In this document: positions 613 to 14,649 of the stretch, piece by piece
Layout of the letters: every line of letters begins with the position of its first letter
Numbering within the stretch: position 1 is the first letter of the stretch
Source: Phycisphaerae bacterium
GTDB taxonomy: Bacteria > Planctomycetota > Phycisphaerae > UBA1845 > PWPN01
Direction: 5' to 3'
NCBI GenBank assembly: GCA_012729395.1
Contig: JAAYDF010000354.1
Coordinates: 1 to 32,565 of the forward strand
DNA: 32,565 bases
The notes under the pieces: model-generated
The model's input: only the letters and a program-made list of their open reading frames with translations
What the model was told of the DNA's origin: nothing
The model's database searches: none
Position numbers and translations under genes: made by a program

Positions 613-846
613 CCCGGCATGAATGCCGGGCCTAGCACAGACGAAGCAGTATCCAGGAGGGACGCCAAACACATAGCAGGTCGAAGGCCTGGGACGAGTT
701 CACGCCCCGCGGGTCGGTCCTGAAGGGACCGTTCATGCGATGGCCTCGCTCGGCACACATGGCGCTATTGTGCGATGCGACATGAACGAGCCTTACAGGC
801 TCGCCTCGAATGCGAGGTGACCGCTTCCCCAGGGCTTCACCCTGGG
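613..846. repeat. array of short hairpins (REP-like)
   Basis: Five small perfect or near-perfect hairpins follow one another: CCCGGCA/TGCCGGG (613-630, loop TGAA), CGGTCC/GGACCG (715-731), GAGCC/GGCTC (788-802), CCTCG/CGAGG (804-817) and CCCAGGG/CCCTGGG (828-846). Spacing is irregular and no repeat unit is conserved between them, so this is not a CRISPR array. From memory, hairpins of the kind GGTCC-loop-GGACC and CCAGGG-loop-CCCTGG are common in intergenic DNA of planctomycetes and verrucomicrobia. I take this as degraded REP-type sequence. Confidence 0.5.
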
Positions 847-850
847 CTGT

Positions 851-923
851 CTTCGGCTCTGAGGCTCTCTTCGAGCCTGAGCATGAGCCTCAGCCTCAGA
901 GCCGAAGGCAGGCTCGAAGAGAG
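851..923. repeat. interleaved 14-bp inverted repeats (A-B-A'-B')
   Basis: Segment A, CTTCGGCTCTGAGG (851-864), is followed directly by segment B, CTCTCTTCGAGCCT (865-878). The exact reverse complement of A is at 894-907 and that of B at 910-923. The order A, B, A', B' is that of an H-type pseudoknot and not of a simple stem-loop. No gene on either strand explains it. Confidence 0.7.
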
Positions 924-1041
924 CTCGCCGAAGTCAGGGGGCGACCGCTACCGAGAACACGCCGGTCGCCGCGGGCCGTGTGCCCCGCCCGCGAAGGCGA
1001 TTTGCGGGTGGTGAGTACGTCGCTGACGCGCCGCATCCCCG

Positions 1042-14403: not shown

Positions 14404-14649
14404 CGTAGCGGTTGCCCCCCGTGGCGACCGGCGCGCTTGCTGGGATCCAGCGTCCTCCAGGGGCGATGACTGCCACACAACTTCGTGAAATGCTCCAGCC
14501 CAAGCCGAAGCGCCAAGCAGGTGAAATCCGCCCCCTGGCGGTCGCGGTACCCAATGACCCCGGCGGGCCGGAGTCGCCCCGGCTCGTAGAAGCGGGCCGT
14601 CTCGACTGACTCGGTCCGCCGCGGCCGCAGGAGGGTGTCTCCTGGATAC

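Follow-up and report, generated by a model that had tools for sequence, protein, structure and literature searches.

Transposition of IS200/605 elements takes place 3' of a short fixed sequence, without target duplication, and involves hairpin recognition. Insertion sequences that target REPs have reportedly been found as well. The origin and growth of hairpin repeats in bacteria are usually ascribed to point mutation or template switching. Template switching is known to create hairpins (PMC8794818, in the portion considered here). For the GTAG families of REPs, loop-length variation and self-complementary inner loops were described in the passages of Di Nocera 2013 (PMC3733652) considered here, which also place Planctomycetes among the carriers and mention Rickettsia palindromic elements (RPE).

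The locus lies in the window, i.e., the whole stretch of 32,565 nt that was analyzed, which is contig C341 of a genome of 5.74 Mb in 370 contigs (G000, hereafter the own genome). On the minus strand, the segment starts with GTAGCGGTCGCC at 951-940, a sequence with 176 exact occurrences in the own genome versus 7 for the reversed control. The minimal REP, i.e., GTAGCGGTCGCC-loop-GGCGACCGG of 27 nt, was found there in 94 exact copies, and the pattern read backwards gave 0. The exact pattern was present in 0 of 60 relatives searched. The GTAG tag adjoins a stem of 8 bp (CGGTCGCC/GGCGACCG), inside the 6-13 bp range of GTAG REPs, and the 94 exact minimal copies agree with the high copy number of such REPs. 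Copies occur singly, in arrays, and in inverted pairs. At locus L069, three 27-nt REPs are placed around a RAYT-like gene that scores just below both cut-offs, i.e., 75.2 versus 80 bits for NCBIfam and 21.7 versus 23 for Pfam. At L060, REP versions of 49/50 nt flank an IS200-like gene, for which the classification is IS200, not RAYT. Based on the tag and stem, the copy counts, the inverted pairs, and the REPs around these two genes, the host element is a GTAG-type REP family.

The tag, the 8-bp stem, the high copy number, and the inverted pairs are shared with the GTAG REPs, REPINs, and RAYTs of PMC3733652, as far as its passages considered here describe them, and the RAYT-like gene flanked by copies may be a further common feature. 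Unlike those REPs, the loops contain discrete inserted units that are also found without the REP, and no such inserted loop units are described in the same passages. In the own genome, one open frame of 844 aa (L067:481-3012, minus strand, contig C317) matches MGS and AICARFT/IMPCHase (PurH) at its ends and has a Y1_Tnp match between them. It seems to be a RAYT-like gene placed in frame inside purH.

In the preliminary description, window positions 851-923 were given as two adjacent 14-mers with reverse complements downstream in the order A, B, A', B', an arrangement hardly due to chance. The order was confirmed, i.e., 894-907 is the exact reverse complement of A (851-864), and 910-923 that of B (865-878). 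Interleaved quadruples appeared in 0 of 200 dinucleotide shuffles, and a chance origin is indeed very unlikely. The arms exceed 14 nt. One pair, 847-866/892-911, has 20 nt with 95% complementarity, and the second, 864-879/909-924, has 16 nt with 100%; the two pairs share three bases of overlap per side (847-866 with 864-879, and 892-911 with 909-924). Exact 14-mer inverted repeats at most 100 nt apart amounted to 26 k-mer pairs in the window versus a mean of 0.025 in 200 dinucleotide shuffles, and interleaved quadruples were confined to one locus in 3 registers. The parts of this copy are listed in the table.

Table. Features of the REP copy in the window and its surroundings.
Feature	Position in window	Strand	Remarks
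Palindrome CCCAGGG..CCCTGGG	828-846		End of another dispersed repeat (760-851), which replaces the far end of the REP here
Left part (17 nt) of outer U30, contains A	850-866	+	850-866 and 909-921 joined give U30 with one change
U42, inverted longer relative of U30, interrupting U30	867-908	-	Supplies most of B and all of A'
Surplus of U42 over U30 (12 nt), same centre	880-891		Similar 12 nt in L145
Right part (13 nt) of outer U30	909-921	+	With 922-923, contains B'
Remaining half of 24-nt unit W24	922-936	-	TGACTTCGGCGAGCT on the minus strand
REP stem arm	940-947	-	CGGTCGCC on the minus strand
REP GTAG tag	948-951	-	CTAC on the plus strand
Arm of neighbouring REP-like copy	961-970	-	GGCGACCGGC on the minus strand

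The repeat at 760-851 has five matches on four other contigs with 95-98% identity. Its other copies diverge directly after GGGCTGTC or GGGCTGTCT, and GGGCTGTC is common to this repeat and the REP copy of the window; the joint looks like a short-homology joint. Because the far end of the REP is replaced by the repeat, the window holds a truncated REP copy. The repeat (L016-L019) contains the palindromes GAGCCTTACAGGCTC and CCCAGGGCTTCACCCTGGG. The Y1 genes of L201 (genome G151) and L203 (G248) are flanked by the palindromes AGCCCACGGC..GCCGTGGG and GCCCAAGGC..GCCTTGGGC, which resemble the CCCAGGG palindrome of the window.

The REPs of the own genome form a ladder of sizes. Among REPs with a recognizable right arm in the sampled loci, which cover part of the genome, lengths of 27 nt (n = 39), 51 nt (n = 19), 78 nt (n = 8), 81 nt (n = 2), 105 nt (n = 1), and 123-124 nt (n = 6) were counted. 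By direct search, 8 full copies of the 123-nt type and two truncated ones, one of which is the window copy, were found, together with two copies of the 105-nt type on contigs C148 and C317 that have 79 identical nt across the joint. Further lengths were seen (e.g., 46, 60-70, 74, and 94 nt), some of them with a different interior or as composites. The steps of the ladder were evaluated by ungapped removal of one contiguous block. Removal of 24 nt converts the 51-nt form into the 27-nt form with 0 mismatches. One block removed from the two types of 81-nt form gives the 51-nt form with 1 and 0 mismatches, the 78-nt form gives it with 1, and the 105-nt form gives the 78-nt form with 2. For the step from 123 to 81 nt, which defines U42, the best removal was the predicted 42 nt in 7 of the 8 full copies, one-base ties aside; in the remaining copy, L005, a single additional base prevents an ungapped fit. 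After removal, five copies showed 4-10 differences from the type I 81-nt form, and L002 ties with type II at 10. Two others, L008 and L009, are nearer to the type II form (3 and 5 mismatches) than to type I (9 and 11), and their inserts are of type I.

The composition of the longest form is as follows. The 81-nt form contains the 30-nt unit U30, and the 123-nt form is U30 interrupted after GGCT by U42, i.e., by U30 in opposite orientation with 12 extra bases. In the window, positions 867-879 and 892-908 joined give U30 reversed. The interrupted U30 supplies A and nearly all of B', and U42 supplies the rest of the arms. The A-B-A'-B' order of half-arms therefore results from two near-identical units in opposite orientation, one interrupting the other. 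The same 42-nt kind occurs alone in another genome (G009, locus L145), which belongs to the same family as the own genome. In the 105-nt form, a different unit is involved: the reverse complement of its 27-nt block matches part of the 78-nt form exactly.

A segmental inversion and duplication had also been proposed for this segment. The proposal holds insofar as U42, from which most of B and all of A' derive, is related in inverted orientation to the sequence that it interrupts, but it does not hold as a single event. Further instances of the arrangement were searched for in the genome; the element is dispersed, and the 105-nt elements are a second instance with different sequence. A missing second instance had been named as the sign of a one-off rearrangement. 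With the dispersed copies, the 105-nt instance, and the inserted unit type also found alone elsewhere, a one-off rearrangement is ruled out for the window segment.

The preferred explanation is that the window segment would be a stack of short mobile palindromes. W24 would have entered the loop of the minimal 27-nt REP, U30 would have entered W24, and U42 would have entered U30 in reverse. Once built, long REP copies would then have spread as REPs. The decomposition into blocks, their dispersal and constant boundaries, the target rule, and one empty site without duplication are observed. Taken as a whole, with the blocks, the inferred movement, and the REP spread, the explanation is considered likely. 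Growth of the repeat can here be read as discrete insertions with a target rule, recurrent self-nesting, and an empty site, and discrete insertions of this kind make the mobility of the 30-nt unit testable. In general, pseudoknot-like interleaved inverted repeats may also be explained by nesting.

U30 was also found outside the REP. At the level of the order, 4 of 114 genomes contained the pattern TTCGGCTCTGAG-gap-CTCGAAGA, and at that of the class 16 of the 397 sampled did, with the own genome counted both times; the reversed control gave 0. The other class genomes with the pattern are thus 15 of 396; among the matches listed, 13 of these have the exact U30 core, G005 has a diverged form, and G009 has the 42-nt form. 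The target rule was derived from 50 distinct sites with at least 25 nt of flank and at most 2 mismatches to the 30-mer (46 identical), a set that omits sites near contig ends and sites listed without fetched sequence. All 50 have G at -1, versus a G frequency of 0.294 in the same loci; 44 have C at -3, 38 have A at +1, and 38 have G at +2. Many sites lie within repeats, so the 50 sites represent about 20 independent flanks. Clustering by flank similarity gave 20 groups, with G at -1 in 20, C at -3 in 15, and a purine at +2 in 20. U30 itself has no GTAG tag, and its left flank is usually CNG, the G being constant at the 50 sites. Many of the flanks belong to repeats, among them the type II unit, W24, and U27; nesting is thus not confined to the own genome. 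At L169, L170, L163, and L176, the repetitive context continues across U30, apparently without duplication as judged by eye.

One empty site was found. In G151, a congener of G253, the orthologous locus lacks exactly the 30 nt of U30, which in G253 lies in frame and lengthens an open reading frame by ten codons. Apart from the (A)G common to both, nothing is duplicated at this 30-nt gap. The unit ends in (A)G and has G before it, which leaves one or two bases of uncertainty in its boundaries. All donor genomes are draft assemblies, and the empty-site evidence is this one orthologous pair, in which loss in G151 may have occurred instead of gain in G253. The idea that U30 forms the ends of an element with genes was rejected, as no second copy with at most 2 mismatches was present in 32 loci; two of these loci have weaker second matches with 4-6 mismatches. 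A U30 with one mismatch (L139:7927-7956) belongs to a MAG with the title Candidatus Berkelbacteria, a group distant from Planctomycetota; a transfer or a binning error could account for this.

A related unit, here type II, belongs to the same family. The pattern CTTCG-NNN-CTGAG..CTCAG-NNN-CGAAG was found in 24 of 397 class genomes, the own genome included, and in none for the control. Among the matches listed, two unit types dominate, i.e., GCT..GCT and ACC..ACC, with a few hybrids. At type II, hybrid, and variant sites, G occupies -1 in 12 of 14 examined. Among IMG/VR contigs, 7 carry the type II unit, one of them as a close variant; their flanks are of 4 distinct kinds, and G precedes the unit in 4 of 4. 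The exact U30 27-mer was absent from IMG/VR viral contigs; by blastn, U30 had no match in plasmids or phages, and the type II unit had none in plasmids. A library or adapter artefact is thought unlikely, given the diverged copies, the strict target rule, the empty site, and the type II unit in viral-collection contigs. In genome G267, a composite of type II and U30 is located in frame inside a mnmE/trmE-like gene (L175).

Other origins of the interleaved arms were considered. A polymerase may have jumped strands inside the 81-nt or 78-nt element, copied backwards, and returned, which would leave an inverted copy within the original. The short matches (CTG, GAG) at both joints and the exactly reverse-complementary insert of the 105-nt form fit such an event, and inverted copies building long stems are also features of the template-switch hairpins of PMC8794818 (portion considered here). 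Those hairpins, however, arise by local copying without a dispersed unit or a target rule, whereas stand-alone sites with one rule and the empty site need a mobile source. Moreover, the 12 extra bases of U42 are missing from the 81-nt form and its kind stands alone in another genome, and the type I inserts of L008 and L009 in hosts nearer to type II were not copied from their own hosts, unless arms were exchanged later. Template switching is an unlikely explanation overall; it is disfavoured for the 123-nt form and retained as a rival for the 105-nt form. U30-like sequence could also be the inner part of the REP, varying as loops do and having no mobility of its own. The passages of PMC3733652 considered here do report GTAG loops that vary in length and have self-complementary inner parts, but U30 and the type II unit, with unchanged ends, are also present where the flanks lack this REP, in other genera and among viral-collection contigs. 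The single presence/absence pair of 30 nt (G253/G151) also speaks against plain loop variation, which is judged quite improbable.

The arrangement had first been read as a possible RNA pseudoknot, in which both helices would function in a transcript under selection. In favour of this reading, each of the two helices is almost perfect, and folding of the strand exceeds that of shuffles (z = -3.5 and -3.9). Pseudoknots are beyond the fold program, and its structures contain either one helix or the other. Support from base changes was not obtained, as 0 of 28 pairs were changed on both sides in 9 copies, although copies that are 94% alike make this weak evidence, and in the same copies pairing and covariation did not exceed column shuffles. 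The type II hosts break helix pairs without compensation, and a sigma-70 scan of 400-1700 gave no promoter-like site. No Rfam family reached its gathering score here; with E values allowed up to 1, the matches were limited to microRNA and sRNA look-alikes that score far under their gathering cut-offs. The A-B-A'-B' order follows from nesting alone. The pseudoknot was rejected, with no covariation in the 9 copies (94% alike), and it is regarded as extremely improbable.

With nested mobile palindromes as the preferred explanation, the way of movement can be considered. Each unit would move as its own block of 27-30 nt, probably in single-stranded form, with an enzyme similar to those of IS200/605 (HUH, Y1) or to RAYTs doing the cutting and joining. 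A single-strand mode of the Y1 type is the best guess because with it the 5' target is fixed and nothing is duplicated. U30 shares both features with IS200/605 elements. Unlike them, the units have no gene, and in the Y1-gene loci scanned no Y1 gene was found beside U30-type units. Y1 genes were present in 8 of 8 U30 genomes tested, all of which are U30 carriers. U30, type II, and U27 units were absent from 30 Y1-gene loci of these 8 genomes (30 of the 46 matches listed) and from 11 Y1-gene loci of the own genome; in the 41 loci scanned, only W24 adjoins Y1 genes, at two genes of the own genome. The unit centre CTGAG fits the target CNG^AG, which would account for self-nesting. If the units do use each other's centres as landing sites, the repeats would grow like nested dolls. 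Targeting of hairpin tips was unsupported, with a mean tip stem of 2.9 versus 2.7 in shuffles (20 clusters); in folding, U27 was no better than shuffles and U30 only mildly better. A target-site duplication, as expected for MITEs of DDE transposons, was not found at the one orthologous pair.

The units may thus form a class of tiny gene-less mobile DNA, i.e., quasi-palindromes of 27-30 nt in two main types, near letter-perfect across several bacterial families, that would enter at CNG^AG without duplication, land in each other's centres, and be moved by an enzyme, probably in single-stranded form. We give this proposal an even chance. Like the insertion sequences that enter REPs, these units would be mobile DNA in palindromic repeats; unlike those, which have their own genes, they are gene-less and have 24-42 nt. 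Rickettsia palindromic elements are likewise short dispersed palindromes, some of them in frame inside protein genes, but the present units are shorter (24-42 nt), unrelated in sequence, and nested in each other, and they follow the CNG target rule. Landing in frame in genes links the units to palindrome-driven protein change. Among the matches listed from the text (figures outside) of open-licence literature on REP/RAYT, template switching, nested or mobile palindromes, and RPE, no published description of these units was recognized.

In the rest of the window, direct repeats of about 26 bases (GCTCGCGATTGGNGCTCGTT) were found at 1040-1141, directly after the REP cluster. A 27-nt REP with one mismatch is located at 14405-14431 on the plus strand, about 270 bases before a tRNA gene.
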